Source: Candidatus Kapaibacterium sp. (GTDB taxonomy: Bacteria > Bacteroidota > Ignavibacteria > Kapaibacteriales > UBA2268). Taken from it: a DNA stretch of 64,000 nucleotides. The stretch is taken from positions 248,001 to 312,000 of the forward strand of contig CP058732.1 of the NCBI GenBank assembly GCA_013414795.1, in the 5' to 3' direction. Of this stretch, positions 5,158-40,833 are shown piece by piece (position 1 is the first letter of the stretch; every line of letters begins with the position of its first letter). The position numbers and the translations under genes are program-made. Below the pieces are notes generated by a model. It saw only the letters and a list, made by a program, of their open reading frames with translations, was not told the DNA's origin and made no database searches.

Positions 5158-6012
5158 TCAAAGCCCTTCCCAATTGAACCCAACACGCATCGATTGTCGA
5201 TATTGCATTCCCGTCTTTTGCCTTTGGTCGAACATCAATTCCACTTTCACCACAATCCCAAGCGACTTCCACAACGAAACTTGCAACTCCGTCGTGTTTC
5301 GAAATGTACTCTCCTTTATCCTTTTCAAACTGGCAAAAACTTCGTTTGTGCTACTCAATCGTACATTTTGCTCGATTCGCAAAGTTGCCTCGGTTTTCCA
5401 TTCCAAGCCAGCCTCCGATTTCCAACGCTCGCGCTCTTTTGTCCTTGGGTCGTCCGTCATCGATGTATAATATTCCGCCCGCGTTTGCTTTAAAGAAACG
5501 CCAACCCGATTCGTCAAAATATGTCGCTTTGAACTATCCGAAATCGTATGGGCAAAGCCAAATGTCTCCATCGACACAACTGGGTCCCAAAACTTCGCAG
5601 TCGCACGCTTTTCCCCTTTGACCACAGCAAACGATTCGGTCAATTGCGTCCGAAAGTTCGCCGAAAAGAATGGGTCCACCACCCAGCCAGCCGGATATTT
5701 CAGCAAGCCTTCGGCAAAAAGTTCGTTGTCCGTTGGAACCACATAGTTCACTTTTTGCGAAGTTAGATTTGTATATTGCACACCAATTGCATAGCGAAAC
5801 GTAGGAGTGAAAATCAGCGTATCAATCTTAAAATCCCTTTTAAAAGAGAACCCGTGGTTCAATTCAAACACCACCGCCCGCCCCTGCTTCCAATCATCCA
5901 CCAGGGATTGGGAAAAAGCAAGGGAGAGCTTTGTGGCAGGGTGAAGGGAATAACAAAAAAATAGAATAAAAAGTAAAATTAATCTAAAATTAGTTTTTTG
6001 CTTTAAAACCAT
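5158..6012 (-). CDS. DUF3078-like outer-membrane protein (module A)
   Basis: A 284-residue protein starting at the ATG 6010-6012; this gives a good signal peptide, whereas an upstream in-frame TTG does not. The mature part has barrel-like alternating strands and a segment (LSLAFSQSLVDDWKQGRA ... FSANFRTQLTESF) that resembles DUF3078-type outer-membrane proteins of Bacteroidota, judged by eye. It is the last gene of module A, after a small secreted peptide, a propeller and a thioredoxin-like protein. Its first ~50 mature residues are nearly identical in DNA to a truncated copy at 8834-8978. The role is unknown; export or assembly of the module's peptide is possible but speculative. Confidence 0.7.
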   Translation of the reverse strand: MVLKQKTNFRLILLFILFFCYSLHPATKLSLAFSQSLVDDWKQGRAVVFELNHGFSFKRDFKIDTLIFTPTFRYAIGVQYTNLTSQKVNYVVPTDNELFAEGLLKYPAGWVVDPFFSANFRTQLTESFAVVKGEKRATAKFWDPVVSMETFGFAHTISDSSKRHILTNRVGVSLKQTRAEYYTSMTDDPRTKERERWKSEAGLEWKTEATLRIEQNVRLSSTNEVFASLKRIKESTFRNTTELQVSLWKSLGIVVKVELMFDQRQKTGMQYRQSMRVGFNWEGL

Positions 6013-6092
6013 TAAAATTATAAAGACTAAATTGAAATATAATGAAAAAACAAAAAAAACTAATTTATTAATTATTAAAAAATTATAATTCT

Positions 6093-6620
6093 TCAATGGC
6101 TTGATCCAATCATTAACATTAGACTATCAACAATTTTCTCTCTGAGAACACCGTTTCGGTTAAACAACCTCTCAAAAGGGAAATATGATAATAAACTCAA
6201 ATCATCTTTATTGAATATAACAATTGATGGTGAGCCCTTAACATTAAAATATGAAAAAATATCATTAAATAGTTTTGTATTCGAAAAAAGAAAGCGAACG
6301 CCCGAAAAGGAATATGGGAGAATCTTTTGGAGAAAATACTTTTTGCTTAAAGAAGAAGGTTCGGTTTGATAAATAAGGTAAATATACAGACTGTTTTCGA
6401 GATAATGTTTTTTGAGTTCAAACAATAATGCTTTTATACAATCAAAACAATAAACTTTTTCAACTAAAATCACAAGAGAAGGCTTTGCGACAGAAGAGTC
6501 GAAAACAAATGCCCTGCCATCAACATTAGTAAATTCGAATTGACACAATTTTACATTATTAATATTAACTGTATTGCAGTCTACTAACAATAATAAAACT
6601 AGGATAATTATAACTTTCAT
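6093..6620 (-). CDS. Secreted thioredoxin-like protein (module A)
   Basis: A 175-residue protein with an N-terminal hydrophobic signal (VIIILVLLLLVDC; the Cys could be a poor lipobox). A thioredoxin-like fold is suggested by the strand-CxxC-helix element LVEKVYCFDCIKALLFELKK at about residues 50-69 and by the later IFSYFNVKGSPSIVIFNKDD, with the conserved cis-Pro position. It would act on thiols or disulfides in the periplasm. It is 12 bases downstream of the propeller gene and upstream of the DUF3078-like gene. The B-module paralogue at 8975-9484 has the same layout with CVNC. The family resembles TlpA/AhpC-type redoxins; the exact assignment is uncertain. Confidence 0.65.
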   Translation of the reverse strand: MKVIIILVLLLLVDCNTVNINNVKLCQFEFTNVDGRAFVFDSSVAKPSLVILVEKVYCFDCIKALLFELKKHYLENSLYIYLIYQTEPSSLSKKYFLQKILPYSFSGVRFLFSNTKLFNDIFSYFNVKGSPSIVIFNKDDLSLLSYFPFERLFNRNGVLREKIVDSLMLMIGSSH

Positions 6621-6632
6621 ACTAACATTAAA

Positions 6633-7898
6633 TTATTTCCAAAAAAATTGAAATATTGTAATTAGGTTAAATATATCGTGATTTGAAATATAATCCTCAT
6701 TTTCCTTTTCTATTTGTTCAAAAGTTTTACCGGGTTGAAACATTAATTCACCCAATGCACCGAGTCTTAATGAAGCAGCATAATTCGCGTAAAAAAAGGG
6801 GGGATAGGAAGTGGGGGATAAAGGAAAATTAAAAAATGAACATTTCTCGTGTCTATTAGGTTTAGAAAGTTTTATATCAGAAAATAGCAATTCTACCCCG
6901 TTTGGCTTTATTCGCCATAAATCAAAGAAACAAGAAAATGAGGCCTTCTCGTTAGGATCGGAAGGAGTGTAAAATACTGCAAATGTAGTGTCATTAACAA
7001 ACCGTACAACCGTCACTCTGCTACCAACTTGCTTAAAATCATCGATTTCCCTTATTATTATTCCCGGTTCCAAAGGGTTATGCTTATTCCTCAGCTCTTT
7101 AAGCCTGGAAGTATCTAGGGATTTCCAATCCTTTGGTTTTCTTGTGACTTGGTATAATTTGTTTAGTTCAGTGTCGAATATTTCTATGTTATATTCAACT
7201 GTTTGAGAAAAAATTACATACCTTCTGCTTACATCAAAAAGTTCTAAAGGGCGGAAATGTGTAAATTCTATACATTTAAAATACGGATTTATTTTACGAA
7301 TGAACTCATTTTTGGATAAATCGTAAATGGATATTTCGGTTTCTTTATAATCATTTATTGGTATGTTTGAATTATAATTTCGTATAAAATATATTCGAAA
7401 ATTTTCTTTATTAAACCAAGATTTATCATATCTATAAATGTATGTGTTGTAATTTAAAGGTTCAACAAATTGTCGAGAATAAATAAGTTCAATTTTATTG
7501 GTTGCAATTCTTCTAAAAAGAACAATCCCTTCAAAAAAGTGCAAATAAATATAGTCTTCATCAATATAGAATGACCGACATATTGGCGAAGAGACCTGAA
7601 ACGGAGGTTCAATCTCATTTAATGAGTAAATAAGGAAATTACTTGTCCGTTGTTTAATATTATAACAAAAAAAGATAAGTGAATCGTTCTCCGTTGGCAA
7701 ATAAACATAAATTGTATTATTACTTATGCTTAAAGCCCTTGGATGGTAATCTACATTCGTTAAATACAGGTTGGGTATAGTAACAATAGTATCCAATACG
7801 AATTGAAAATTTTGGTTTTTGTGAATTGCTGTACAACCACAAGCCACAGTTAACAAAAGTAAAACGAAATATATTTGTTTAATTTTATTAATTTTCAT
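6633..7898 (-). CDS. Beta-propeller-like lipoprotein (module A)
   Basis: A 421-residue protein beginning at the ATG 7896-7898, preceded by a G-rich Shine-Dalgarno (GGGGGG). The signal ends LLLLTVACGC, a probable lipoprotein signal. The body is a run of beta-strand blocks with aromatic-rich turns, reminiscent of the 6-bladed beta-propeller proteins that in Bacteroidota sit beside TlpA-like redoxins and small secreted peptides. No catalytic motif was found. The paralogue at 9468-10691 shares blocks such as FVNDTTFAVFYTPSD / FVNDSTLLIRWYG and FDLWRIK / YDIWEIK. The gene lies between the small peptide gene (69 bases upstream) and the thioredoxin-like gene (12 bases downstream). Confidence 0.65.
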   Translation of the reverse strand: MKINKIKQIYFVLLLLTVACGCTAIHKNQNFQFVLDTIVTIPNLYLTNVDYHPRALSISNNTIYVYLPTENDSLIFFCYNIKQRTSNFLIYSLNEIEPPFQVSSPICRSFYIDEDYIYLHFFEGIVLFRRIATNKIELIYSRQFVEPLNYNTYIYRYDKSWFNKENFRIYFIRNYNSNIPINDYKETEISIYDLSKNEFIRKINPYFKCIEFTHFRPLELFDVSRRYVIFSQTVEYNIEIFDTELNKLYQVTRKPKDWKSLDTSRLKELRNKHNPLEPGIIIREIDDFKQVGSRVTVVRFVNDTTFAVFYTPSDPNEKASFSCFFDLWRIKPNGVELLFSDIKLSKPNRHEKCSFFNFPLSPTSYPPFFYANYAASLRLGALGELMFQPGKTFEQIEKENEDYISNHDIFNLITIFQFFWK

Positions 7899-7967
7899 TT
7901 TACCCCCCATTATATAAAAATGGAAGTCAACCTACCTATCGAAGATAAGTTGACCTCCTTGATTACT

Positions 7968-8381
7968 TTATTCGGGCAAAGACTCGCCAGGTCCTTTAAC
8001 TTTTATATTAATATTGACTCCTACTTTTTCCCATTCTACATAATGTTGGGTTACCGGGTCGGTCCAATTCCCACTAAGAACCCCTTGGCTAATTTGACTA
8101 AGCGCATAATCCACGCAATTTTGTTCTGCATCGGTTTTCGGTGTTGGGTCTCGACCTGGACCAACCACAGCATACGGGCAAGGGTTAGGACCACTTCCTT
8201 CGCACCAAATATTTGTATATTTATCTGTTCGTTCTATCGATACATAATTATAAGTTGGCTCTTTTCCAGGCCCATTATCCCTTCCACCTATTGTGGTTCT
8301 TTTATACCAGGAAAGAGCTTCCGACGCAAAAGCAAACGAGAAAAGAAATACAATTACTATAACAAAAATAACCTTTTTCAT
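7968..8381 (-). CDS. Small secreted Cys-containing peptide (module A)
   Basis: A 137-residue protein with a strong signal peptide (VIFVIVIVFLFSFAFASEA). The mature part contains three cysteines (NIWCEGSGPNPCPYA and EQNCVDYALSQISQGVLSGN) and ends with a VEW-containing tail. It aligns with the 127-residue product at 10744-11127: both have a central Cys cluster, then a helix YA(L/E)xQIxxGxLxGx, then VEW. This arrangement ahead of a propeller and redoxin gene recalls the NVEALA-type peptides of Bacteroides, but the sequence is different and no NVEALA motif is present. Function unknown. The RBS and start codon are tandemly duplicated just upstream. Confidence 0.65.
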   Translation of the reverse strand: MKKVIFVIVIVFLFSFAFASEALSWYKRTTIGGRDNGPGKEPTYNYVSIERTDKYTNIWCEGSGPNPCPYAVVGPGRDPTPKTDAEQNCVDYALSQISQGVLSGNWTDPVTQHYVEWEKVGVNINIKVKGPGESLPE

Positions 8382-8412
8382 TTTATAACCTTTTTCATTT
8401 TATAACCTTTTT
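8368..8412 (-). repeat. Tandem duplication of RBS plus start codon
   Basis: On the minus strand the 17-mer AAAAAGGTTATAAAATG occurs twice head to tail (8412-8396 and 8395-8379), followed by a partial third copy inside the coding region. The upstream copy therefore makes a mini-ORF reading MKKVIK whose TGA overlaps the real ATG (ATGA). This looks like a slippage duplication that creates a translationally coupled start for the small secreted peptide of module A. Confidence 0.75.
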
Positions 8413-8530
8413 ATTTTTTCAACATAATTAATTAATAATTTCAAAGAACAAAATAATTGCGAAATTCCAATGTATCACTGCTCGGGTTTTTTCTATGTTT
8501 AAAGCGAATTGGAAACTCAAGAATCATTGA

Positions 8531-8791
8531 CATCAGGTGGTCCACGGCAGCGGGAACAATGGTTGTACGGAATGCGTACCGAATCTATCGATTTGTAGCA
8601 ATGCTCTGTACCCCCCCCCCGTGTAAGTTATTGTGAACAAAGGAGTTACAGAACAGCAGGATTGATTATCAAAATACACACTTCCCCATTGCGTCAAAGG
8701 AATCAGAGCAGGTATGTTTCCAATCCAAATCATTTCGATTTGCAAAGTATCAAAATACAAAAATAAACAAAAAAATTAAAAATGCAAGAGG
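8531..8791 (-). repeat. Direct repeat R1 with 10-base poly-G tract
   Basis: First of five related ~260 bp repeats, all in the same orientation. On the minus strand it reads a conserved block (IWIGNIPA ... LTQWGSVYFDNQ ... ITYTGGG), then G10 (C10 on plus at 8611-8620), then the remainder of the block out of frame. Similarity to copy R2 continues leftward through about 8420, up to just upstream of the module A peptide gene. The sense frame after the tract would encode CYxSIDSVRIxxHHCSxCRG, but ten Gs put it out of frame here. It lies about 150 bases upstream of the gene at 7968-8381. Confidence 0.85.
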
Positions 8792-8978
8792 TAAATAAAA
8801 AAATTTTAAATTTTTTGCAAAATTTTTTTCCAGCCCCGTGGTTCAATTCAAAGACAACCGCCCGCCCCAGCTTCCAATCATCCACAAGGAATTGGGAAAA
8901 AGCAAGGGAGAGACGGGAAGTGGAGAAAAGAAGATTGCTGTTAATAAAAAACAATAATAAACATATAATTATTTTCAT
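8730..8978 (-). pseudogene. Truncated DUF3078-like outer-membrane protein (module B)
   Basis: The ATG at 8976-8978 overlaps the stop of the upstream thioredoxin-like gene (ATGA). The product starts with a signal peptide, then SRLSLAFSQFLVDDWKLGRA and VVFELNHG, closely matching the module A protein (5158-6012). DNA similarity between the two stops abruptly near 8834. Beyond that the frame reads AT-rich sequence and the edge of repeat R1 and ends after 82 residues. Roughly 200 residues of barrel are missing, so this is a 3'-truncated remnant, apparently cut by the event that placed repeat R1 here. Confidence 0.8.
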
Positions 8979-9484
8979 TTGTAAAGCTCTTTTTCGATTT
9001 GTTCATAAGGAACAAAAATTAAAGTATCCTTTGTTAGGATGAAATATGAAGGTGTTTTTGAAATTCTATATTTACCGAATATTCCATCTTTCAAGTTTAT
9101 GGGTGGCCAAGGGTCCTCATCATTATGAACATCGAAATAAATTTTAAACTTATCATAAACAAGAGGCCCCAAAATTTTCTTAACGTCATATTTCATCCTG
9201 ATTTTATTATTGTAATTGTTTTTACTAACCCTAGCCAGTACACAAATTTCATAAGAAGGGTATCGTTCCTTTAATCTAGAAATAATTTTGAAGCAATTCA
9301 CACAATTATAATAATGAAAACAAATAATAATGTAATTATTATTGGTTTTTGAAAGATTAATATAATTACCATTATCATCTTCAACAACAAATGACACACT
9401 TTCTTGAGATAATAAATAAAAAATTGAAATAATGAACAAAATGAACCAAACGAATCTTTTTATGTATTTATTTAACATATTCAT
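8975..9484 (-). CDS. Secreted thioredoxin-like protein (module B)
   Basis: A 169-residue paralogue of the module A redoxin at 6093-6620. After an N-terminal hydrophobic signal (FVWFILFIISIFYLLSQE) comes IIICFHYYNCVNCFKIISRL, a thioredoxin-like CxxC element at about residues 54-66, and later KTPSYFILTKDTLIF with the cis-Pro position. The start overlaps the end of the propeller gene by 17 bases, and its TGA overlaps the ATG of the truncated barrel gene, so the four module B genes form one tight transcription unit. A second ATG two codons in is an alternative start. Function in periplasmic thiol chemistry is inferred. Confidence 0.65.
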   Translation of the reverse strand: MNMLNKYIKRFVWFILFIISIFYLLSQESVSFVVEDDNGNYINLSKTNNNYIIICFHYYNCVNCFKIISRLKERYPSYEICVLARVSKNNYNNKIRMKYDVKKILGPLVYDKFKIYFDVHNDEDPWPPINLKDGIFGKYRISKTPSYFILTKDTLIFVPYEQIEKELYK

Positions 9485-10691
9485 AGACTGTTAAGCCCAG
9501 AGTTGGATTATTTGCTTCTTGGCAATTTCTTTGGCGTATGCGAAATTGTTGAAGAGTTTCATCTTCTGGACCCTTATCCTCACAAAAAACTGTATAAAAA
9601 CTGATAATGTAATTCGAAGCACATTCGAACCTAGAAGAATATAATGGCTCAAATTTCATCAAAGTTGAATCGTTTGGGAGTTTTGCTAAAATATTTTTTC
9701 CAACTAAAAGAGCAGAGTCTTTTTTTATTTCCCAAATATCATAATATATATCCGGATACCAACTCGTTGTATCTTTTTTTGGACCATACCATCTTATTAA
9801 TAAGGTAGAATCATTAACAAAGCTAACTTTTTCAATTATCCCGATACCACTGAAGAACGTTGAGCGAATAGAATCAAGCGCAGATTTAATAGTAATATTT
9901 TGATTTAAAACTAAATTGGCAAATTTTTTATGAAGATTTGAGTCTAATTTATTGAAAAGCGAATCTTCTCTATGGATATTAAAAAGAAACTTGCCATCAT
10001 TGTCTAAAATTTTAATATTATAAATAGAAATATCGGAACAAGCAATATATTTACTACTCAAATCAAAAACCTCAGGTGGGTACAAAAGTGTAAAATAAAA
10101 CCCTACTGGTGTTCCAAGATCTACATATTTTAAAGAAAAATTATTTAAATCAATTATATAGATAAAACTATTTGTCTCATAACCCATTTTGCCACTTCGT
10201 AACCCAAAAGAACCCAAATATGCTTTGTCTTCAAAAATCTTTAAAAAGTCAACATATTTTTCAACTTCCATAACAAACTTCATATTGATTTCACCCGGCG
10301 TTATTTCACCAAGGTAAAACTTTTTGCCAAAATAAATAGCTAAGAATTTAGAATTGAAAGAATACAAAAGTATATTTCCCCTAATTTCATTTAACTGAGT
10401 ATTTTCAATTTTTATTTTATAAATATGTTCTTCTTTTTTTTCTATATCAAATATTCGAAAATTTAATTCGTCATCGCTTTTAAAATGTAAAATTCCAACA
10501 TATTTATTATTAATGGATATTTTTTTGAAAAAAGCTTCTTCAAATTCAAATCCATCAATACCTTTGCAAACAATATTGTCCTTCAATTTAAAATATCTAA
10601 AAAAAGGGTCGTCCAAAAGAAATGAGCTATTAATACTTTTGCTTGAAGAAGTAGGTAAAAGTATTATAATAATTACTAAAAATAATCTCAT
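9468..10691 (-). CDS. Beta-propeller-like secreted protein (module B)
   Basis: A 407-residue protein starting at the ATG 10689-10691, preceded by a strong GGAGGG Shine-Dalgarno; an upstream in-frame start would add 15 residues without a signal. The signal is FLVIIIILLPTSSS, without a lipobox Cys, unlike the module A copy. The rest is beta-rich and shares order and motifs with 6633-7898 (VSFVNDSTLLIRWYG, YDIWEIKKDS). It ends with several cysteines (CASNYI, CEDKG, NCQEAN) that the A copy partly lacks. It is probably a surface or periplasmic propeller; no enzyme motif was found. It lies 52 bases after the small peptide gene. Confidence 0.6.
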   Translation of the reverse strand: MRLFLVIIIILLPTSSSKSINSSFLLDDPFFRYFKLKDNIVCKGIDGFEFEEAFFKKISINNKYVGILHFKSDDELNFRIFDIEKKEEHIYKIKIENTQLNEIRGNILLYSFNSKFLAIYFGKKFYLGEITPGEINMKFVMEVEKYVDFLKIFEDKAYLGSFGLRSGKMGYETNSFIYIIDLNNFSLKYVDLGTPVGFYFTLLYPPEVFDLSSKYIACSDISIYNIKILDNDGKFLFNIHREDSLFNKLDSNLHKKFANLVLNQNITIKSALDSIRSTFFSGIGIIEKVSFVNDSTLLIRWYGPKKDTTSWYPDIYYDIWEIKKDSALLVGKNILAKLPNDSTLMKFEPLYSSRFECASNYIISFYTVFCEDKGPEDETLQQFRIRQRNCQEANNPTLGLTVYEYVK

Positions 10692-10743
10692 ATTCCCTCC
10701 AAAAAAGTTTACTGGGTGTGGCAAAGCCACACCCAAATTTTAC

Positions 10744-11127
10744 TCAATTGGTATCGTAAACTGTTTCAGTAATATTTGCATTATAAATATTTGTTGCATT
10801 CCATTCAACAGTATGTCTAATACCATCGATAATTTCTTCATAGGTTCCATTTAATAGACCTTTTCGAATTTGATCTTCGGCGTATTCAACTAAACGCATC
10901 ATTGAGGGTCGGTGTTCCCACTCACAATTTATGTAACCAGGTTCCCAACAAGAAAGCTTATGAACATCACAATCACATTTTGGATCATGAAAATGCCATT
11001 CGTTAACTTTATTGTACTTCCCATTCTGACCCGCATTTCCTTTTTCTACTATAATTTTTGAAACGCATAAAAGTTCTAATTGTGAAAAAAGGAAAATTGA
11101 AATTACAAATACAAAAAACTTTTTCAT
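10744..11127 (-). CDS. Small secreted Cys-containing peptide (module B)
   Basis: A 127-residue protein with a signal peptide (FFVFVISIFLFSQLELLC). The mature part has a dense Cys/His region, FHDPKCDCDVHKLSCWEPGY then INCEWEHR, followed by LVEYAEDQIRKGLLNGTYEE and a HTVEWN tail. The helix and VEW tail match the module A peptide at 7968-8381, while the Cys region differs in number and spacing, suggesting a conserved scaffold with a variable Cys segment. The context (repeat R2 upstream; propeller and redoxin downstream) is the same as in module A. It could be a disulfide-stabilised or modified exported peptide; this is inference. Confidence 0.65.
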   Translation of the reverse strand: MKKFFVFVISIFLFSQLELLCVSKIIVEKGNAGQNGKYNKVNEWHFHDPKCDCDVHKLSCWEPGYINCEWEHRPSMMRLVEYAEDQIRKGLLNGTYEEIIDGIRHTVEWNATNIYNANITETVYDTN

Positions 11128-11278
11128 TTTAACACCTTTTTATTTTGTTCAACATAATTAATTAATAGTTTTTAAATAATTAATAATTTTAAAGAACAAA
11201 ATAATTGCGAAATTCCAACGTATCACTGCTCGGGTTTTTTTATGTTTAAAGCGAACTGGAAACTCAAGAATCATTGAC

Positions 11279-11540
11279 ATCAGGCGGTCCACGGCAGCGG
11301 GAACAATGGTGTAACGGAATGCGAACCGAATCTATCGAATTGTAGCAAGGCTCTGTACCCCCCCCCCCCGTGTAAATTATTGCAACCAAGGGAGTTACAA
11401 AACAACAGATATGTTTATCAAAACACACACTTCCCCGTTGCGTTATAGGATTTCGAGCAGGTATGTTCCCAAACCAAACCATTTCGACTTGCAAGGTATT
11501 AAATTACAAAAATAAACAAAAAAAATTAAAATGTAAAAGC
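11279..11540 (-). repeat. Direct repeat R2 with 12-base poly-G tract
   Basis: Second copy of the ~260 bp repeat. The tract is C12 on plus (11358-11369). Here the minus-strand frame stays open across the tract and reads CCFVTPLVAIIYTGGGG then CYNSIDSVRIPLHHCSRCRG before stopping. With R1 it also shares a longer left arm (about 11140-11278) containing the AACATAATTAATTAAT element and TATCACTGCTCGGG. It lies about 150 bases upstream of the module B peptide gene and 88 bases after the stop of the next gene. Confidence 0.85.
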
Positions 11541-11628
11541 AATTCGAACCTTTTACCTACTTTGTAAACAGATTTGAATTAATTATCTGTTCGGTTTTAT
11601 TAAAAAAACAATATCATTAACTAAAATA

Positions 11629-14034
11629 TCATTTACTTTTAACGAATGGTACAGACCATTGACTGTTTTGAAGTTGGATTTTAGCAATATAAATTCCATC
11701 GGGCAAATTACTTGTAAATAATCTAATGATAGAGCAATTTGTTTTTAACCCTTCAACTTGAGTATAAGGAATCTCAAGTTTTTGACCGTTAATATTATAA
11801 ATCGAAACTTTTATGTCTTCCGACGTGAAGCCAGAATCCCAGCAAACAACGATATTTGTGAAATTGACCGAAGGATTTGGATAGGGTGGAAAACAAAAAA
11901 GGAATGGCTTGGATTCTTCAACTGCAATGCTGGGAAATGAATGTTTTAATTTAAGTTTTCCCAAATTCACTTCGTACTTATCAATGAAAACCGAAAACTT
12001 CTTAACAAAAGAAACATAGTCTTGGTTTTCCACACGGAATATGCTTGTCATCTTCCAACCATTAATGTTGGGATTTGTATATTCGAAATAAAGGGATGTA
12101 TCCCTACAATTCGGATAAAATCTCATCCAATAATCACAAAGAAGAATAAGTGTATCCCCAAAATTATACAAAATGGGTGGGCTTGGTACCTCAATTGAAT
12201 CTAAATTTCCGTTGGATGAGTCAAAAATTAACAAGTTCCATTTCCATATAGAACCTTCAATCGTGGTTTTGGCAAAGAAAAAACAACCATCCAAAACTTT
12301 TAATAATGTGATATAAACTTTTAAATCTGAAACCCGAATCTCAATTTGGGGAATTATTGCAATTGTGTCTAAATCACTTCTAAGTGATTGGGTTCTCAGA
12401 ATATAAGTAAAATTAGAATCTTTGGAAATCGAATAAATATAATTATCATCGACGACAAAAGGCATCGAAATTTGTGGAGGGTTAAAAATTGTATCTATTA
12501 ACTGTAAATCATTATTAAACACAAAATATGATGGCATCCATTTATTGGAATTGTATAAAATTAAGAACGCAGGTAGATATATTCGACTTTTAAAATAAAA
12601 ACTATTCCCAAATAAAATCGCTTGAATCGAATCGGGTTTAAAATATTCATTAAGTACAATCATTAGGGTATCATTTTTAGACAATGTGTCGTTGACAATA
12701 TCAAAATGTTTGATTATAATTGTATCGGATGATCCTGTTGGTTTTTTTCTATTAATAATAAAAAAACCCAATTTACCATTGGGAGAAGCAAGGGGATAAT
12801 AAGAGCCATTAAACCATCCGTAACTTGTGTCTGGTTTCAATGATTTAAAAGTGGTTCCATTATCATAAGAAATAAACATATACGGAGGATAAAAACTTAA
12901 AATGAAGATTTTATCCTTATTTTGATAAAAAATATTATCAATAGCCTGCGGATGGGAAACATCTGAAAATTCGGGTACAATAAACGGTCTAAAATAGGAA
13001 ACAAAATTCCAACTATTACCATTATCTTTGGAAATAATGATTGTTTTGCAAGTGCCACATACAATAATAGTACTATCGTTTATTCTTTTTATTTCATTGA
13101 CTTGAAATGGATGCTTATCTTCCACATCGCTTAAATATGGTATCCAGGCGTTTGGATTACTGACCTCTGTAACGATGTTAACTCCTTCTTTATTTGCTTT
13201 AACAAAACTGATAGTAAAATTGTCATCCTTTTTACTGGCTCGAACTGGGGCAAGTGTGTATGCTTCGTCACCCTCGATTAAGTAATCTTTAGTTATAGGC
13301 AAATCACTTGTGATTTTTTTCCAGCTTTCCCCAAAATCTTTCGAAACTAATATAGTATGTCTTATAAATAAAAAGTTTAAATCAAATAATGGGGAACTCT
13401 CATTAGAGACAACTAAAACATAAATTGTTGAGTCAATCACTTTTAAGTTCTCGATCTCTCTATTAGAAAAGCCAGTGGTAAGAGTGTCTGTTGGTATTTT
13501 TGTCAAAATATTAAATTTAATTATCGAAACCTTGCTATCGATAATAAATAGAAAATTTTTCCAAACTGCAACTTCTGTAAACTTTACGAATGGGTCGAAT
13601 TTATAAAGCAAATTTATGTCGGATTCCTGTTCTTTCTCAAAACTTAATATTTCATTTTCAGTTACAATGTATACCTTTTTCCCATCTGTGCAAAAATCAA
13701 CGAAATTGCTTTCCCATTGTATTGGGGCTTCTTGCCAGGTTTCTCCGTTATCGTCAGAAATAAAAATCTTATTCGGAGAAAGAGCATATAATTTATCGTC
13801 AATTTGAATAATTTTTAATATATCGTTCTCCCAGCCAAGAGAGATTTGTCGCCAGGTTGTTCCAAGGTCAGTACTAAATGTAATAATACCATAATTCCCA
13901 TATACTAATATTTTGTTACCAGAGTATAGAATGCCGTTATAATCAGTAGATAACATCTCAAATTCAAGTGACTTTCCGCTTGCAACTGGAATACATAAGA
14001 TGAAACCGAATAATAAACAAACAAGGTTTTTCAT
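11629..14034 (-). CDS. BNR/Asp-box repeat protein with T9SS-type sorting domain
   Basis: An 801-residue secreted protein. The ATG at 14032-14034 gives a good signal peptide (FGFILCIPVASGKS). It carries at least five Asp-box-like elements of the sialidase/Ycf48 propeller type: ISDDNGETWQEAP, VSKDFGESWKKI, ISKDNGNSWNFV, ISYDNGTTFKSL and STDLGTTWRQI. These build beta-propellers and do not by themselves imply sialidase activity. The last ~90 residues (PPYPNPSVNFTNIVVCW ... SIYNINGQKLEIPY ... LPDGIYIAKIQL) are a T9SS type A-like C-terminal sorting domain, so the protein is probably exported and surface-attached. Repeats R2 and R3 flank the gene. Confidence 0.82.
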   Translation of the reverse strand: MKNLVCLLFGFILCIPVASGKSLEFEMLSTDYNGILYSGNKILVYGNYGIITFSTDLGTTWRQISLGWENDILKIIQIDDKLYALSPNKIFISDDNGETWQEAPIQWESNFVDFCTDGKKVYIVTENEILSFEKEQESDINLLYKFDPFVKFTEVAVWKNFLFIIDSKVSIIKFNILTKIPTDTLTTGFSNREIENLKVIDSTIYVLVVSNESSPLFDLNFLFIRHTILVSKDFGESWKKITSDLPITKDYLIEGDEAYTLAPVRASKKDDNFTISFVKANKEGVNIVTEVSNPNAWIPYLSDVEDKHPFQVNEIKRINDSTIIVCGTCKTIIISKDNGNSWNFVSYFRPFIVPEFSDVSHPQAIDNIFYQNKDKIFILSFYPPYMFISYDNGTTFKSLKPDTSYGWFNGSYYPLASPNGKLGFFIINRKKPTGSSDTIIIKHFDIVNDTLSKNDTLMIVLNEYFKPDSIQAILFGNSFYFKSRIYLPAFLILYNSNKWMPSYFVFNNDLQLIDTIFNPPQISMPFVVDDNYIYSISKDSNFTYILRTQSLRSDLDTIAIIPQIEIRVSDLKVYITLLKVLDGCFFFAKTTIEGSIWKWNLLIFDSSNGNLDSIEVPSPPILYNFGDTLILLCDYWMRFYPNCRDTSLYFEYTNPNINGWKMTSIFRVENQDYVSFVKKFSVFIDKYEVNLGKLKLKHSFPSIAVEESKPFLFCFPPYPNPSVNFTNIVVCWDSGFTSEDIKVSIYNINGQKLEIPYTQVEGLKTNCSIIRLFTSNLPDGIYIAKIQLQNSQWSVPFVKSK

Positions 14035-14168
14035 TTTATTACTCAATTAACTTTAAAAATCATCTAAAATTAATAAAAGACAAATTTGTTCAAAGCTCAA
14101 ACAATTTTGTATTTAAAGCTTTTCCAACCAATTTACAAAGAACTTTGAAGAATGGCTGATTACATTTA

Positions 14169-14428
14169 CATCAGATAGTCCACGGCAGCGGGAACAATGG
14201 TGGAACGGAATGGGAACCGAATCTATCGAATTGTAGCAATGTTCTGTCCCCCCCCCGTGTAAGTTATTGTAAACAAAGGAGTTACAAAACAACAGAATTG
14301 ATTATCAAAATACACACTTCCCCATTGCGTCAAAGGAATTCGAGCAGGTATGTTTCCAATCCAAATCATTTCGATTTGCAAAGTATCAAATTGCAAAATA
14401 AACAAAAAAAAATTAAAAATGCAAGAGG
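14169..14428 (-). repeat. Direct repeat R3 with 9-base poly-G tract
   Basis: Third copy of the repeat; the tract is C9 on plus (14248-14256) and a neighbouring A present in other copies is missing. The conserved minus-strand block (IWIGNIPARIPLTQWGSVYF) is intact, but after the tract the frame is shifted and stops as QNIATIR. It lies between the stop of the 14482-17955 gene and the start of the 11629-14034 gene, about 135 bases upstream of the latter. Confidence 0.85.
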
Positions 14429-14481
14429 GAAGTTATTTTTTACATAATTCATAACTCCATTAAGTATAGAAGCAACAATTT

Positions 14482-17400
14482 TCAATATTTTATCACTTTG
14501 CACCTTGCAATTTGCAACCCATTTGTTGCTTCGATTAAAAATAGTCCATTGCCAATGGTTCGCATATCGAGCCATATTGTCTCTTGCTGGTACAATTTCT
14601 CCCAATGCAACTCCTCGATGACACTGCCCATTATGTTGTATATCCGTAATCGGTATTCTCTTCCTTTTTCTCCTACAATCTCTATCGCCATTTTATCCCC
14701 AGATTCGTCTGCTTTAGCTGTTATCGTTAATTGTACGAATCTTTCGACTTGGCTTAATTCCGGCATACACACGCCGACTGTATGGACTCGCCCATCCCTT
14801 GTCTCAACTTCCACATATTTCCCAAAGTCAAAACTGTCCAACTCCACTGGTTCGTATTCTTGTCCACTCATCATCACATTACCACAAAGTGTGAGTATTA
14901 TCTTGTCTTCGTTCTTTCTCAACAATTCAATTCCAGAACCTGTCTTATACCTTACATTCCCTTTGATTACTCCATCGCTCCCGCTTAACAACTTCGACGA
15001 AATTAGCATTGAACCACTCCAAACGTATTCATCTTCTTGTTTGCCTTCTACAACCTTTGCATACGCCGGGATACAATAGTTTGTCCACCCTACCTCGGCA
15101 AGGGTGTCCCACGGACTCCACACAACCACTTTACCCCTACCTATCCCAAATAACTCAACTTGGTAATCTACTACGCATGGAGAATCTATCGGAATAATAA
15201 TAGCTCCTCGATTTTCGCCTAACTCTTTCGCAGTGAATTTGACTTTTATATTTCTTTTCTCTCCTATGTGTAAAATTCGATTTTCAATATTCATAACCTC
15301 GGCTTCATAAGCATCTCCAACAAGATTTATCTTCCCAATTTTTACATTGTTTCTTCCAACATTTTCGATTACTATTTCTTTTTCGCTATATTTCCCAATG
15401 TAAAGCGTGTCGAAATCAACTTTGCCATCGACCTTTATCTCAACATTTTCTTCTTGTACCACCATACTTGCAGAATCAATACATCCATAATTGTTTGTTA
15501 CAACTACTGTATAAACTCCTGCTGAATAGACCATTCGACGACGACCTTCGACACCGTCGCTCCACTTATATTTGTTGCCTTCGCTCTCAGCTATAAGTTC
15601 GAGGCTATCCCCTTTCGAACATATCCAATCCCGTTCTGCATTTATCCTTACGTCCAATCCCTTGTTGAACTTAACCTCAAATCCAACAGAGTCCATACAA
15701 CCAATTTCATTCCACACCTTAACCCAATAATTCCCCTCACTGCGTATAATTGCCTTGCTTGTTGTATCTCCCGTGGACCAAAGAACACTGTAATCGCAAC
15801 AACTTGCTCTTGGATATTCTATTTCCAATTCCACACTATCGGCGTTGCAAACTCTTATAGGAATCCCACGCTTGAAACTAATTCTCGGCGTTGGAACCAC
15901 CTCCACTTCTACGCTATCAACATAGGTTGTATCCCCAACGTCTGCGTAACAATAATACCATCCACTATGAAGCATCTGGGCTTTGCCTATCACAACACTA
16001 TCCCCTATTGCTTCAAAGCCATTCGGTCCAGTCCACCGAAAAGGTGATTTAAGCGTGTCGTAAATTAAAAACGACCTCAGTATTATATCTTCGTTCTCAC
16101 ATACCGGAGTATTGCTGAAAGCCCGCAAGGGGGTGCTTACATCCCCATAAAGGTAATTCAAATAGACTGGTGGATAGGTTAAAAATACACGGTTGAAAGG
16201 CAAATCTTTTTCTTCTGGGACCCTTTTCAAACGAAGGCACAATTCAGAAAATAAAGTATCAGAGAAGAGAAAGTTAATTTTTATCTTTTCGGGGTGATTA
16301 GGATTCTCCACTTCGTAAACTTTAAGTAGAAAATATTCGGTTGGATAGCAAAGACCTGTGGAAAGAGTATCGAGATCATTTAATGTCATTAGTAAAAATC
16401 TCCCATTGGGAATTGGAAAATATAGGTAATCATATATTTTCCCATTTACTCCAATAAACTCTGGTGAGGTAAAATCTAAGGAATAGACGTTATCAAGATT
16501 GACTCCCAGTGACACCAAGAATTCAAGCGGGGTAAGACTATCGGGTAACCATTTTGTAAACTTATGAGAAATAGTATCAAAATTAGAAAGCGTTAGATCA
16601 TAGCAATATCGGCCAAAAAATAATTTCTTAGAATCGAATGAGAACATAAAGTGTCCTAAATTATAATTAAAAATCCAATCCTCATACCAAGGACACCAAT
16701 TATCCGTGGGGCGTGTATGACTTTCTTCAAATTCAGTAGGATATTTAAATTGTTTAGGGCTTATGGTATAAATTTTACTTTGTTCCAAAGTAAGGTCGGT
16801 ATTTAAGGGATAAAATTCTCCTGTTAAATTATCGAATTTAAAAATAAATATATAAGATTTAAATGAAGATTTGTTCATTTCAAATGGGTAGAGATAAATG
16901 AACCCTGGATATATTGCTATCAACTTATAATCCGGAGAAAAGACTAATGGATAATGTTTGAACCCTATTGATATAGGGTAATAATCTTTTTGGGTTGGAT
17001 TAAATAGCAATAAAGTGCTATCAAAAAGGAAACTTTTTGAATAAACAGGCTGATTAACCAGCGTAAACTCACCATTATCATTTTTTAAAAGATAAGTTCT
17101 AATATTGCCATAAGCTTCTACAAGGAAATTCTTAGGGGTATAATCACTGTGGACTGTATAAAGCACAATCCAAAAATCTTTTCCATTTTGATGTGGGACA
17201 ATAGAAAAGTTGATAACCTCTGGATTCTTTAATGTATCATCAAAACCATCTTCTATGGTTTTTGTTTCTACAAGCTGGATATCATTTGGATTAATTTTAA
17301 ATGTTTTTAAAATAAACTTAAAGTTGCTTCCGTAAATTTTATCATAAGATAGATAATAAAACAAATTGGGGTCAGTTGGATTCTCCCAAATAACGGGGTT

Positions 17401-17955
17401 TATTCTATGGTAGTTTGAAGGAACAATAGTGTTATCAAGTTTTGAAGTTCTGTAAGTGTCAGATAATGAATCAATTGTAATTATTTCCCCACCAGAAGTT
17501 GCAAAGAAGGATTCAACAAATGTTTGTATCTTAAGAGGTGAACACAACAACCAAGGCTCCCAAAGATAGTAAAGAATTGAATAGTCATAGACAAAACGAT
17601 CATCTGATATTGGAAAATAGGATATAATTTGAGGGTGATAAATACCAAAATAAGGGCAACCAAATATTGTTTTTCTCTTTATAATTTTCTGAAAAAAATG
17701 CTTAATGGAATATCTACTTTGTGTTATCAGGTCTTTTAATGGCAAATAGAAGTATTTTTGAAGACTATCTTGTCCTGCAAATACAAGATCTGGTTTAGAT
17801 TGATTGACTGAATCATAGGTGTAATGAGCAAAATATGAAAGTAAACTACCAGCGAAAATTGGATTGTACAATCTCTTCCAGCAGAAGAGCCCTTCTGAAC
17901 CGGATAAAATTAAAACAAGAATTAAAAAAAACAGGAAATAAAATTTATTTTTCAT
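14482..17955 (-). CDS. Large secreted protein, Ig-like and choice-of-anchor domains, T9SS-type tail
   Basis: A 1157-residue protein with a signal peptide (FLFFLILVLILSGSEG). The first ~600 residues resemble the irregular propeller-like head of Bacteroidota surface proteins and have no motif I can name. Next come Ig/PKD-like domains (SPFRWTGPNGFEAIGDSVVI; VLWSTGDTTSKAIIRSEGNY), a choice-of-anchor D/DUF1573-like domain near 880-960 (LYIGKYSEKEIVIENVGRNN), and a C-terminal sorting domain (YRLRIYNIMGSVIEELHW ... FLIEATNGLQIA). By eye the sequence coding the head (above about 16.2 kb) is much more AT-rich than that coding the tail, suggesting a mosaic gene. A short coupled ORF precedes the start. 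Confidence 0.8.
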   Translation of the reverse strand: MKNKFYFLFFLILVLILSGSEGLFCWKRLYNPIFAGSLLSYFAHYTYDSVNQSKPDLVFAGQDSLQKYFYLPLKDLITQSRYSIKHFFQKIIKRKTIFGCPYFGIYHPQIISYFPISDDRFVYDYSILYYLWEPWLLCSPLKIQTFVESFFATSGGEIITIDSLSDTYRTSKLDNTIVPSNYHRINPVIWENPTDPNLFYYLSYDKIYGSNFKFILKTFKINPNDIQLVETKTIEDGFDDTLKNPEVINFSIVPHQNGKDFWIVLYTVHSDYTPKNFLVEAYGNIRTYLLKNDNGEFTLVNQPVYSKSFLFDSTLLLFNPTQKDYYPISIGFKHYPLVFSPDYKLIAIYPGFIYLYPFEMNKSSFKSYIFIFKFDNLTGEFYPLNTDLTLEQSKIYTISPKQFKYPTEFEESHTRPTDNWCPWYEDWIFNYNLGHFMFSFDSKKLFFGRYCYDLTLSNFDTISHKFTKWLPDSLTPLEFLVSLGVNLDNVYSLDFTSPEFIGVNGKIYDYLYFPIPNGRFLLMTLNDLDTLSTGLCYPTEYFLLKVYEVENPNHPEKIKINFLFSDTLFSELCLRLKRVPEEKDLPFNRVFLTYPPVYLNYLYGDVSTPLRAFSNTPVCENEDIILRSFLIYDTLKSPFRWTGPNGFEAIGDSVVIGKAQMLHSGWYYCYADVGDTTYVDSVEVEVVPTPRISFKRGIPIRVCNADSVELEIEYPRASCCDYSVLWSTGDTTSKAIIRSEGNYWVKVWNEIGCMDSVGFEVKFNKGLDVRINAERDWICSKGDSLELIAESEGNKYKWSDGVEGRRRMVYSAGVYTVVVTNNYGCIDSASMVVQEENVEIKVDGKVDFDTLYIGKYSEKEIVIENVGRNNVKIGKINLVGDAYEAEVMNIENRILHIGEKRNIKVKFTAKELGENRGAIIIPIDSPCVVDYQVELFGIGRGKVVVWSPWDTLAEVGWTNYCIPAYAKVVEGKQEDEYVWSGSMLISSKLLSGSDGVIKGNVRYKTGSGIELLRKNEDKIILTLCGNVMMSGQEYEPVELDSFDFGKYVEVETRDGRVHTVGVCMPELSQVERFVQLTITAKADESGDKMAIEIVGEKGREYRLRIYNIMGSVIEELHWEKLYQQETIWLDMRTIGNGLFLIEATNGLQIARCKVIKY

Positions 17956-18023: not shown

Positions 18024-18115
18024 ATTACCTCCAAAATTAATTAAAAAACTTTTTTGGCGAATTCCCCACTTTCAGAACACCAGGCAAAAATTAATTTAAA
18101 AGAAACTTTTTCTTA

Positions 18116-18370
18116 TCGGTGGTCCACGACAACTTGAACAATAGTGATACGGAATGCGAGCCAAATCTATCGAATTGTAGCAAAGTTTCGTCCTCCCCTA
18201 TGTAAGTCATTGTAATCCAATTTGTTATAACAGCGTAGGGTTCGAGTTCAAAAAGCGGACTTCCTACCATCGGTAAGCGGTTCAGAACATCTTTTTTCCC
18301 AAATTAAAACATTTCGTTTTCAATGTGTCAAATAACAAAATAAGAAAAAAAATAGAAATATGTGAGAGGG
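18116..18370 (-). repeat. Direct repeat R4, degenerate copy
   Basis: Most diverged of the five copies. It keeps the pattern GGTCCACG, a GAATGCGAGCC-type block, ATCTATCGAATTGTAGCAA, TGTAAGTCATTGTAA and the AT-rich right end with GAGAGG. The G tract is short and interrupted (TCCTCCCC on plus near 18191). On the minus strand CYNSIDLARIPYHYCSSCRG is readable but is one frame off from the upstream half. It lies 160 bases upstream of the 14482-17955 start. Confidence 0.7.
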
Positions 18371-18533
18371 GAAAACTTCCCCTCTTTGATTCGAAACTGA
18401 GTTAATGCCACAAAAAGGATAATTTTCAAATTATATGAAATATCAGATTCTTTTTAATTTTACGTATTTTCGTGGCTCAATGATTCTGTTTAAAAATAAT
18501 GAATGAGCAGTTTCAAAAGTACTTACAATGTTG

Positions 18534-19992: not shown

Positions 19993-20241
19993 TTATTTGT
20001 CACTGATTAATGAATCAAGTATACTGACGGGTATTGTGGATTGCAATTGGATAAGAGAATCAAGAATAAGATTATGATAATAACCTGCAAGGTTCAAAAT
20101 AGTTGTATCGTCGTAATTAATTACCGTATTTGATTTTGACAAAATCGGATCAATTATTTTATTATTTTGACAAGATACAATAATTCCCCAGAATAACCAA
20201 GATATAATTATGATTGTTTTATATGAAGAAATTTTTTTCAT
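19993..20241 (-). CDS. N-terminal part of split lipoprotein
   Basis: An 82-residue ORF with a lipoprotein signal (IIIISWLFWGIIVSC, lipobox Cys at about residue 24), followed by DDTTILNLAGYYHNLILDSL. The HN-x-x-L-D pattern is typical, from memory, of a family of Bacteroidota lipoproteins of 250-300 residues with a Gly-rich C-terminus. The TAA at 19993-19995 is followed in frame by TGG ATA TAC CAA and an open frame into the 19369-19941 ORF, so the stop probably breaks one gene. Repeat R5 lies about 140 bases upstream. Confidence 0.55.
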   Translation of the reverse strand: MKKISSYKTIIIISWLFWGIIVSCQNNKIIDPILSKSNTVINYDDTTILNLAGYYHNLILDSLIQLQSTIPVSILDSLISDK

Positions 20242-20380
20242 AACAACACCTTATAGTTATTAAACAAAATTAATTAGGAAATAATTTAAAATTTTTAGAC
20301 GAAGTTTTAACAATTGTGTATTTTCGATGATGTCCTTTGATTGTCCCTCGATCCAACGTACCAGCAAAAACTTTTCCCTT

Positions 20381-20634
20381 AGGCGTTCCACGGCAGAGGG
20401 AACAATGGTGGAACGAAATGCGAACAGAATCTATCGAATCGTAGCAATGTTCTGTACCCCCCGTGTAAGTCATTGCAACCAAAGGAGTTACAAAAAGACA
20501 GGCTTGATGTTCAAAATACACACTTCCCCATTGCGTTAAAGGAATTCGAGCAGATATGTTCCTAAACCAAATCATTTCGATTTGCCAAGTATCAAATTAC
20601 AAAAATAACCAAAAAAAATTAAAAATGCAAGAGG
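20381..20634 (-). repeat. Direct repeat R5 with 6-base poly-G tract
   Basis: Fifth copy; the tract is C6 on plus (20457-20462). The minus-strand frame is open across it and reads TQWGSVYF, FVTPLVAMTYTGG then CYDSIDSVRISFHHCSLCRG and continues to a stop at 20270-20272, 29 bases before the lipoprotein start. Together with R2 (12 Gs) this is the copy in which both conserved blocks share a frame. The right end lies 10 bases from the stop of a truncated Cys-rich ORF. Confidence 0.85.
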
Positions 20635-20643
20635 ATAGTATTT

Positions 20644-39612: not shown

Positions 39613-40833
39613 ATGAAGCAAATTTTGTTCCTTCTTTCTATTTATCTCACTTTTTACTATTTTTCCTTTGCCCAGACCGCCGAAGAATATGTTTCAAGAG
39701 GAAATGCCAAATTTGAAAAAGGGGATTTTCGTGGCGCTATTGAGGATTACACCAAGGCTATCGAAATTAAACCTAATTATGCAGAGGCGTATTTCAACAG
39801 AGGCAAAGCAGAGGCTGATCTAGGTGGCCTTCGCTCTGCTATTGAGGATTTCAACAAGTCTATCGCAATTAACCCTAATTATGCAGAGGCGTATTTCAAC
39901 AGAGGCAAAGCAGAGGCTGATCTAGGTGACCTTCGCTCTGCTATTGAGGATTTCAACAAGGCTATCGAAATTAACCCTAATTATGCAGAGGCGTATTTCA
40001 ACAGAGGCCTTGCAAAAGGTAACCTAGGCGACTTTCGCTCTGCTATTGAGGATTTCACCAAGGCTATCGAAATTAACCCTAATTATGCAGAGGCGTATTT
40101 CAACAGAGGCCTTGCAAAAGGTAACCTAGGCGACTTTCGCTCTGCTATTGAGGATTTCACCAAGGCTATCGAAATTAAACCTAATTATGCTGAGGCGTAT
40201 AACGGCAGAGGCAATGCAAAGGGAGATCTTGGCGACTTTCGCTCAGCTATTGAGGATTACACCAAGGCTATTGCAATTAACCCTAATGATGCAGAGGCGT
40301 ATTACAACAGAGGCAATACAAAAGTTAACCTTGGCGACCTTCGCGCCGCTATTGAGGATTACACCAAGGCTATCGCAATTAACCCTAATTATGAAGAGGC
40401 GTATTACAACAGAGGTGTTGCTAAGGCGAAACTTGGCGACCTTCGCGCCGCTATTGAGGATTACACCAAGGCTATCGCAATTAACCCTAATCTTGCAGTG
40501 GCGTATAACAACAGAGGGAATGCAAAGATGAACCTTGGCGACTTTCACGCCGCTATTGAGGATTTTAATACGGCTATAGCAATTAACCCTAATCTTGCAG
40601 TGGCGTATTACAACAAAGGCACTGCAAAGTTAGACCTTGGCTACCATCTCGCCGCTATTGAGGATTTCAACAAAGCTATCGCAATTAACCCTAATTATGT
40701 AGATGCATATATCAATAGAGGCGTTGCGAAGTATTACCTTGGGGACAAATTTGGTGCTTGCAGTGATTGGAGTAAAGCCGGGGAGTTGGGCTTGAAAGAC
40801 GCTTACGATTATATTCGAAAATATTGCAAATAA
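39613..40833 (+). CDS. Secreted TPR protein with near-identical repeats
   Basis: A 406-residue protein. The ATG at 39613 follows an AAAGGTGA Shine-Dalgarno and gives a signal peptide (ILFLLSIYLTFYYFSFAQ); a longer upstream frame has no signal. The mature part is ten consecutive 34-residue tetratricopeptide units (pattern AEAYxNRGxAKxxLGDxRxA then IEDYTKAIAINPNY) and a capping half-unit ending DAYDYIRKYCK. It would form a superhelical protein-binding surface in the periplasm or outside. The neighbours give no clue to the partner: decayed DNA upstream and tRNA-Lys downstream. Confidence 0.85.
   Translation: MKQILFLLSIYLTFYYFSFAQTAEEYVSRGNAKFEKGDFRGAIEDYTKAIEIKPNYAEAYFNRGKAEADLGGLRSAIEDFNKSIAINPNYAEAYFNRGKAEADLGDLRSAIEDFNKAIEINPNYAEAYFNRGLAKGNLGDFRSAIEDFTKAIEINPNYAEAYFNRGLAKGNLGDFRSAIEDFTKAIEIKPNYAEAYNGRGNAKGDLGDFRSAIEDYTKAIAINPNDAEAYYNRGNTKVNLGDLRAAIEDYTKAIAINPNYEEAYYNRGVAKAKLGDLRAAIEDYTKAIAINPNLAVAYNNRGNAKMNLGDFHAAIEDFNTAIAINPNLAVAYYNKGTAKLDLGYHLAAIEDFNKAIAINPNYVDAYINRGVAKYYLGDKFGACSDWSKAGELGLKDAYDYIRKYCK
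39679..40698 (+). repeat. Ten 102 bp tandem repeats coding TPR units
   Basis: Ten in-frame 102 bp units run from 39679 to 40698. Units 4 (39985-40086) and 5 (40087-40188) differ by one base near their ends, and units 2 and 3 are nearly identical, so the array has expanded recently and can probably change copy number by recombination or slippage. Confidence 0.9.

Follow-up and report, generated by a model that had tools for sequence, protein, structure and literature searches.

A candidate secreted module of cysteine peptide, propeller and redoxin in Candidatus Kapaibacterium and its relatives

Analysis of a 64,000-nucleotide (nt) stretch of Candidatus Kapaibacterium sp. (contig CP058732.1 of assembly GCA_013414795.1; hereafter the window, to whose positions all plain coordinates refer) revealed two related gene cassettes, A and B, on the minus strand at 5158-11127. 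Each contains a gene for a small cysteine-containing protein (peptide; pepA, pepB), followed by genes for a propeller (propA, propB) and a redoxin (trxA, trxB). In related genomes, the module is conserved as a unit of these three genes, with a neighboring barrel gene as an accessory. The three-gene set looks like a genuine, uncharacterised secreted system, and none of the literature matches listed dealt with it.

An earlier interpretation of the window (the sequence-only reading) had described a duplicated four-gene module, and its eight open reading frames (ORFs) are all present. The same order and pairwise similarity, which it had claimed for all four genes, hold for peptide, propeller and redoxin, but not for the fourth gene. 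Pairs were compared by two-sequence BLASTP, and scores obtained after removal of the 22 N-terminal residues were set against 500 shuffles. The propellers are clearly similar (E 4e-12; local Z 14.1; 0/500 shuffles as good), and so are the peptides (E 2e-5; local Z 7.2, 0/500; global Z 3.8, 1/500), with the similarity confined to the C-terminal half. The weakest pair is that of the redoxins (E 0.005; local Z 4.3; 1/500), and the match of trxB to AhpC-TSA (20.8 bits) stays under the Pfam cut-off of 26. In relatives, each of the three A/B pairs falls into a single profile family.

Conservation and joint inheritance of the three genes

The linkage on which the sequence-only reading had staked its module recurs in other genomes. 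Profiles built from the window genes only (the two peptides; the two propellers) were searched separately in 80 related genomes, resulting in 21 peptide and 22 propeller matches, with 12 adjacent peptide-propeller pairs (same strand, within 1.2 kb) in eight genomes, including the window's own. When the profiles were extended with relatives and run on 395 sampled genomes of the phylum, they matched 19 peptides and 16 propellers, with 14 adjacent pairs in 11 genomes. Matches occurred in 13 genomes in each search, all inside the window's class. The window-only test is the cleaner one, because such matches had led to the loci on which the extended profiles were trained. The same gene arrangement is found across several families of the order, and two other families of the class share it. 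None of the four other congeneric genomes searched gave a peptide match, and a propeller was found in G003 only. The block at 8001-12000 shows a G+C content of 31%, compared to 36-44% in 12 of the 16 4-kb blocks of the window; together with the lack of a peptide in these four genomes, this would fit gain by transfer.

To describe the surroundings of the propeller, we counted neighbors of 36 propeller ORFs (loci picked for a peptide or propeller match; one split gene, in G047, counted twice). The peptide lies upstream of 27 of them, and a redoxin accompanies 28, either downstream (26) or fused to the propeller (two, at L101 and L102), which supports the earlier view of the redoxin as a component of the system. 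Two further proteins (583 aa, L023; 638 aa, L025), encoded behind other copies of the repeat element described below, are unsupported as propeller-redoxin fusions, as neither matched a module profile or a Pfam family at E ≤ 0.01; in a seven-protein search, the propeller profile gave 6.9 bits for the former and the redoxin profile 7.5 bits for the latter. In G078, G047, G038 and G054, all of the order, a second large family of proteins that look exported adjoins the module, with members at L101:4673-6307, L102:7340-9088, L104:1500-3248 and L105:7270-8985 and pieces in L103. By eye, its N-terminal part appears redoxin-like, with CxxC in L102 and L105 and none in L101.

The 17 aligned peptides share a signal-like N-terminus, a GGxxG region, a C-x7-C pair, a helix-like YAxxQIxxGxLxG segment and a final VxW. 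The description of pepA and pepB as having different cysteine segments was therefore wrong, since CEGSGPNPC and CWEPGYINC both conform to C-x7-C. This pattern, counted anywhere in the protein, is present in 24 of 25 propeller-paired peptides, and the strict form CxGxGxxxC in 17 of these 25 as well as in 10 of the 17 aligned peptides, including pepA (pepB has C-x7-C only). Six family peptides have no propeller to pair with, namely those of L119 and L171, two at L170, and the additional copies of L106 and L120 (the L120 copy being a 56-aa fragment). Only that of L119 has C-x7-C. This difference (24/25 vs 1/6; Fisher P ~2e-4) ties the cysteine pair to the presence of the partner genes. As called, the peptide measures 114-164 aa in 23 of 25 loci.

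All 20 separate redoxins carry CxxC at the aligned site. The propeller profile yielded six matches in the PDB up to E 10 (best E 6.6e-4), five of which are NHL propellers, three of them being Brat, which we take to be an NHL propeller. Searches of peptides and propellers against Pfam and NCBIfam returned chance-level matches only (best E 0.016 to 0.034), and thus no family in these databases, related or unrelated, fits the peptides. A sorting tail of the type IX secretion system (T9SS) was matched in none of 19 module propellers (Pfam, E ≤ 1). A script for lipoprotein signals was positive for 2/25 propellers, 1/20 redoxins, 0/25 peptides and 11/19 TolB_like ORFs (see below); given the low numbers for propellers and redoxins, we do not claim lipoprotein anchoring for the family.

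Pairwise distances between loci are correlated for peptide and propeller (25 loci; r 0.63, 0/5000 permutations) and for propeller and redoxin (20 loci; r 0.55, 0/5000), and more weakly for peptide and redoxin (r 0.29, 7/5000). These correlations show that the genes travel together and are no proof of contact. The nearest relatives of pepA are the peptide of the second G078 locus and that of G076, while those of pepB are two other G078 peptides; the pepA-like and pepB-like kinds are neighbors in G078 as well. We suggest that cassettes A and B may be an old pair, as judged from peptide neighbors by distances only and not by a tree. For the propellers, whose distances are near saturation, the closest sequences come from G058 (propA) and from G021b and G025 (propB).

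The sequence-only reading had also assigned a DUF3078-like barrel to each cassette, through which the peptide might be exported. Such a barrel is encoded by ORF 5158-6096 (PF11276, 34.6 bits, cut-off 25), which also exceeds the DUF481 cut-off (28.8 vs 21.1 bits). The second cassette differs in having a fragment only: ORF 8730-8978 consists of a signal-like N-terminus followed by 78 bp that are 94% identical to 5851-5928, and past this match it enters a dispersed repeat. Since a barrel or barrel fragment lies ≤ 4 kb from just 5 of the 36 propeller ORFs, both window propellers included, export via this barrel is unsupported. A further DUF3078 copy at 766.8 kb of the same genome scores better than 5158-6096, and a relative of the barrel, 25% identical, was found in a Candidatus Kapaibacterium metagenome-assembled genome.

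The repeat element upstream of the cassettes

Ahead of each cassette we found a repeat of ~265 nt that was absent from the earlier account, with pepA and pepB starting 149-150 nt behind it (Table 1). The genome contains 13 copies of full length, besides a partial one and a remnant. All full copies have a uniform orientation to the next gene, which is of secreted type by inspection. Behind 8 of the 13, the first gene encodes a small Cys-containing protein (71-263 aa), followed by a large protein, and 6 of 12 large proteins in the element clusters possess a T9SS sorting tail above the cut-off.

Twelve G/C runs of at least 8 nt occur in the genome, of which four lie inside ORFs and eight in element copies, although the latter make up only ~0.13% of the sequence. 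Across copies, the G run varies between 7 and 12 nt, and some copies of this genome have no long run. The sister species G002 harbors three diverged copies, one cut by the contig end, with G runs of 8, 12 and 11; two precede the same kinds of gene, the third is located at a contig start. The tract is kept in the sister species. This enrichment of poly-G in the element, the signature of a contingency tract, suggests phase variation. Outside the genus, a DNA search of 60 genomes gave short matches only (none > 80 nt), and an element profile run on the loci of relatives produced a single match (E 0.77), inside the genus.

We favor a non-coding nature of the repeat. Upstream of the G run, one frame has five stops in 585 codons and no third-position bias; downstream, one frame is free of stops over 299 codons and shows third-position bias (195, 200, 320). 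In several copies, the G run breaks the frame between the two halves. A known RNA was rejected, the sole two Rfam matches (E ≤ 1) being below the gathering scores and outside the repeat copies, and so was a structured RNA (covariation term -0.01; two-sided change in 3/47 pairs). Two candidate promoter positions were seen: the motif TTG-N-TAnnTTTG occurs at the element start in 3 of 13 copies, and a TAATTTTG box lies ~30 nt before the start codon in other copies.

Fragments of the 5' region of the barrel gene (48-78 bp, 90-100% identical) are present at 8835-8912 of the window, L022:3088-3153 and L023:7640-7687. They are positioned directly after an element-headed gene (L022) or directly before the next element (L023 and the window), and all three end at one common base, which may mark a recombination scar or the end of a cassette. 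Several proteins contain 15-20 cysteines and match no Pfam family above the cut-off (L023:8159-8833, L025:5978-6523, L025:9924-10715, L026:3992-4657, L173:267-959). Each is found behind an element copy, a partial one in L173, and except in L173 they adjoin a large secreted-type protein. Elsewhere in the window, self-comparison revealed a tandem repeat with ~102-nt units at 39736-40746.

Table 1. Genes and repeats of the two cassettes and their surroundings (window positions).
Feature	Position	Strand	Remarks
DUF3078-like barrel, accessory	5158..6096	-	ORF start TTG 6096, ATG 6012; PF11276 34.6 bits
Redoxin A (trxA)	6093..6620	-	175 aa, CFDC
Propeller A (propA)	6633..7898	-	421 aa, lipoprotein-like N-terminus
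Peptide A (pepA)	7968..8381	-	137 aa, signal-like N-terminus, motifs CEGSGPNPC and YALSQISQGVLSG
Upstream repeat before pepA	8531..8794	-	10-nt G run 8611-8620
78-bp piece of barrel gene 5' region, in ORF 8730-8978, no barrel gene	8835..8912	-	
Redoxin B (trxB)	8975..9484	-	169 aa, CVNC
Propeller B (propB)	9468..10691	-	407 aa
Peptide B (pepB)	10744..11127	-	127 aa, motifs CWEPGYINC and YAEDQIRKGLLNG
Upstream repeat before pepB	11278..11540	-	12-nt G run 11358-11369
Upstream repeat before 805-aa T9SS-tailed BNR/sortilin-type propeller (11629-14046)	14170..14431	-	G run 14248-14256
Diverged upstream repeat before 1157-aa secreted-type protein (14482-17955)	18115..18372	-	no G run ≥ 7
Upstream repeat before 82-aa lipoprotein-like ORF (19993-20241)	20377..20637	-	no G run ≥ 7

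Possible mechanism and alternatives

Our preferred reading, which is tentative and falls somewhat short of probable, is that of a three-gene secreted module with an effector role, comprising an exported cysteine protein, a redoxin acting on its C-x7-C pair and a matched propeller that binds the peptide. The small protein would be exported by Sec, as its signal-like N-terminus indicates. The thioredoxin-fold enzyme would then make, shuffle or break the C-x7-C disulfide, a role suggested by its invariant CxxC and its linkage, with a disulfide-bonded peptide as the putative product. Judging from the mostly one-to-one gene pairing and the matched divergence, the predicted six-bladed propeller may bind its adjoining protein at the cell envelope, serving as a receptor, a carrier or a protecting partner. 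The likeliest role would be that of a diffusible or surface-displayed intercellular effector, either a signal or bacteriocin-like, with the matched propeller present in the producing cell. The module would work as loci of NVEALA peptides and TolB_like propellers do, with peptide and propeller families of its own, and the shared poly-G element could switch cassette expression at random.

Several points weigh against this effector reading. Export, redoxin action on the disulfide, propeller binding and an intercellular role are all deduced from sequence. No peptide was recognised for 9 and no redoxin for 8 of the 36 propeller ORFs, and peptide genes without a propeller exist at L119, L170 and L171. 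Pairing is not strictly one-to-one, with two propellers at L116, a second peptide at L106 and at L120, and two redoxins at L108. The G025 peptide, though paired, has no second cysteine, and the two L170 peptides have none and one. The conserved C-terminal half of the peptide appears less variable than expected for a toxin. Correlated distances would also arise from plain co-inheritance, and the nearest neighbors of propellers A and B differ from those of peptides A and B. Finally, AlphaFold models from two-sequence input (mean predicted local distance difference test scores, pLDDT, 36 and 52) were too poor for fold tests.

The invariant CxxC of the separate redoxins (20/20) and the fusion of propeller and redoxin in 2 of 36 propeller ORFs would also suit an envelope redox or stress sensor, in which the redoxin sets the disulfide of the peptide, the propeller reads it and nothing is released. 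According to PMC6107167, human NHLRC2 likewise joins thioredoxin-like and NHL propeller domains. We nevertheless consider a sensor unlikely: several diverged copies occur within one genome, the tails of NVEALA-type peptides are highly variable in cysteines, which would be odd for a sensor, and no recurring regulator or membrane signalling gene was noticed at the listed loci, where no systematic search was made.

Also improbable is a structural or adhesive surface set, that is, a phase-variable secreted surface family whose small subunit, the peptide, would be anchored by the propeller. The same element precedes other secreted-type genes, T9SS tails are found in 6 of the 12 large cluster proteins, and a small Cys-containing protein gene comes first behind 8 of 13 full copies, all of which would suit such a set. 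However, no such tail was matched in the module's own propellers (0/19), and in the relatives searched outside the genus the module is present but the element was not found. Ordinary co-inheritance of unrelated exported proteins with shared expression and no joint mechanism could accommodate the weak peptide-redoxin correlation (r 0.29), the propeller ORFs without a recognised peptide (9/36) and a joint function deduced from sequence, but it is very unlikely given that several families of the order, as well as two other ones of the class, have the genes in the same arrangement, and that a parallel layout with different peptides exists at TolB_like loci.

Comparison with known systems

The combination of a short cysteine peptide with a thiol oxidoreductase gene recalls the bacteroidetocins (class IIf bacteriocins), in which, as PMC6671954 describes, such a gene stands beside the disulfide peptide in most regions. 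The module shares this trait in its predicted CxxC redoxin. Bacteroidetocins have a 15-16 aa double-glycine leader, a 42-48 aa mature peptide and an ATP-binding cassette (ABC) transporter/peptidase (PMC6671954), whereas the module peptide has a longer hydrophobic signal-like N-terminus with no double-glycine leader by inspection, a larger product and a propeller. No ABC transporter/peptidase was present among the ten window proteins scanned with Pfam (3.9-18 kb); relatives were not checked systematically. The fusions at L101 and L102 resemble NHLRC2 in uniting a thioredoxin fold and a propeller in one unit, and the propeller profile also hits this protein weakly in the PDB (E 1.3), but the likeness is at most one of fold. 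We know of no peptide partner of NHLRC2.

The closest parallel is offered by the NVEALA peptide loci of Bacteroides and related bacteria, which have received little study and to which the sequence-only reading had compared the layout. TolB_like propellers (PF15869), for which BF3164 is presumably another name, were found in 29 of 247 genomes, and none in G000 (E ≤ 1e-5). Directly upstream of the propeller, 9 of 19 usable TolB_like loci (of 20) have a small ORF with a signal and at least two cysteines, compared to 7 of 110 other genes of at least 300 aa in the loci examined; the same crude filter recovers 20 of 33 window-family propellers. One of the nine, at L184, is a 166-aa ORF that is probably no peptide, with an 85-aa Cys peptide one gene further, and another, in G303, carries both NVEALA and CNGIGSLDC. 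Small Cys peptides without NVEALA precede TolB_like propellers at L181, L185, L186, L187, L191, L194 and L196, and at L196 a CQTC redoxin-like ORF follows directly downstream.

As NVEALA peptides had been seen in G303, a second search with PF14055 was centred on this genome, whose family we infer to belong to Bacteroidales. Matches were obtained in 31 of 151 genomes of the family, 19 of them above the cut-off, with up to 21 in one genome; in the first sample of 198 genomes there had been two, neither above the cut-off, and no module gene was found around one of these (L157). Yet the term NVEALA was not found in the literature searched. Within 15 stretches picked for NVEALA matches, 32 of 50 ORFs with N[VIL]EAL are directly followed by a TolB_like ORF, and therefore the layout analogy holds: in both systems, tandem arrays have a small signal-bearing Cys peptide immediately before a propeller.

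A subclass of 7 of these 50 ORFs also shares the strict CxGxGxxxC with the window family (e.g. CNGIGSLDC), among them L269:3180-3545, a Pfam NVEALA member with 56.9 bits. Among 375 small ORFs with at least two cysteines (the longest of overlapping ORFs being kept, which dropped pepA and some others), the strict motif occurs in 21, namely 15 window-family peptides, six NVEALA-type peptides and no others. Two NVEALA-type peptides also score with the window-family peptide profile (E 3.7e-4 and 0.0056), as do three ORFs, in 3 of the 15 stretches, with the redoxin profile. In hhalign comparisons, the window propeller family reached a probability of 85 with TolB_like (P 6e-6), compared to 17 (P 1.5e-3) for T9SS-type propellers as a control. 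For the peptides, the probability of 95 with the seven CxGxGxxxC members of NVEALA is biased, because these were chosen by motif; with all 48 NVEALA members it was 42, over 16 columns.

Nevertheless, PF14055 matches none of 17 window-family peptides and PF15869 none of 19 window-family propellers (both E ≤ 1). By inspection, none of the 17 aligned peptides has the NVEALA sequence after the hydrophobic leader, and they possess an extra conserved C-terminal domain (YAxxQIxxGxLxG, VxW). Based on the shared layout and motif and the hhalign probability of 85, we therefore regard the module as a variant of the NVEALA/TolB_like kind that is a member of neither family. A possible, if rather doubtful, extension is one Bacteroidota-wide class of disulfide-peptide systems. 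NVEALA loci and the module would be two branches of it, with the CxGxGxxxC core, a partner propeller and the redoxin in common; every propeller would serve its own peptide as a specific receptor or immunity partner, and the poly-G element would switch the whole repertoire in this genome. A second, distant peptide family with the same layout and cysteine motif points to a common mechanism, which can be tested by pairing the three products, and C-x7-C, propeller and CxxC form the conserved core for first tests.

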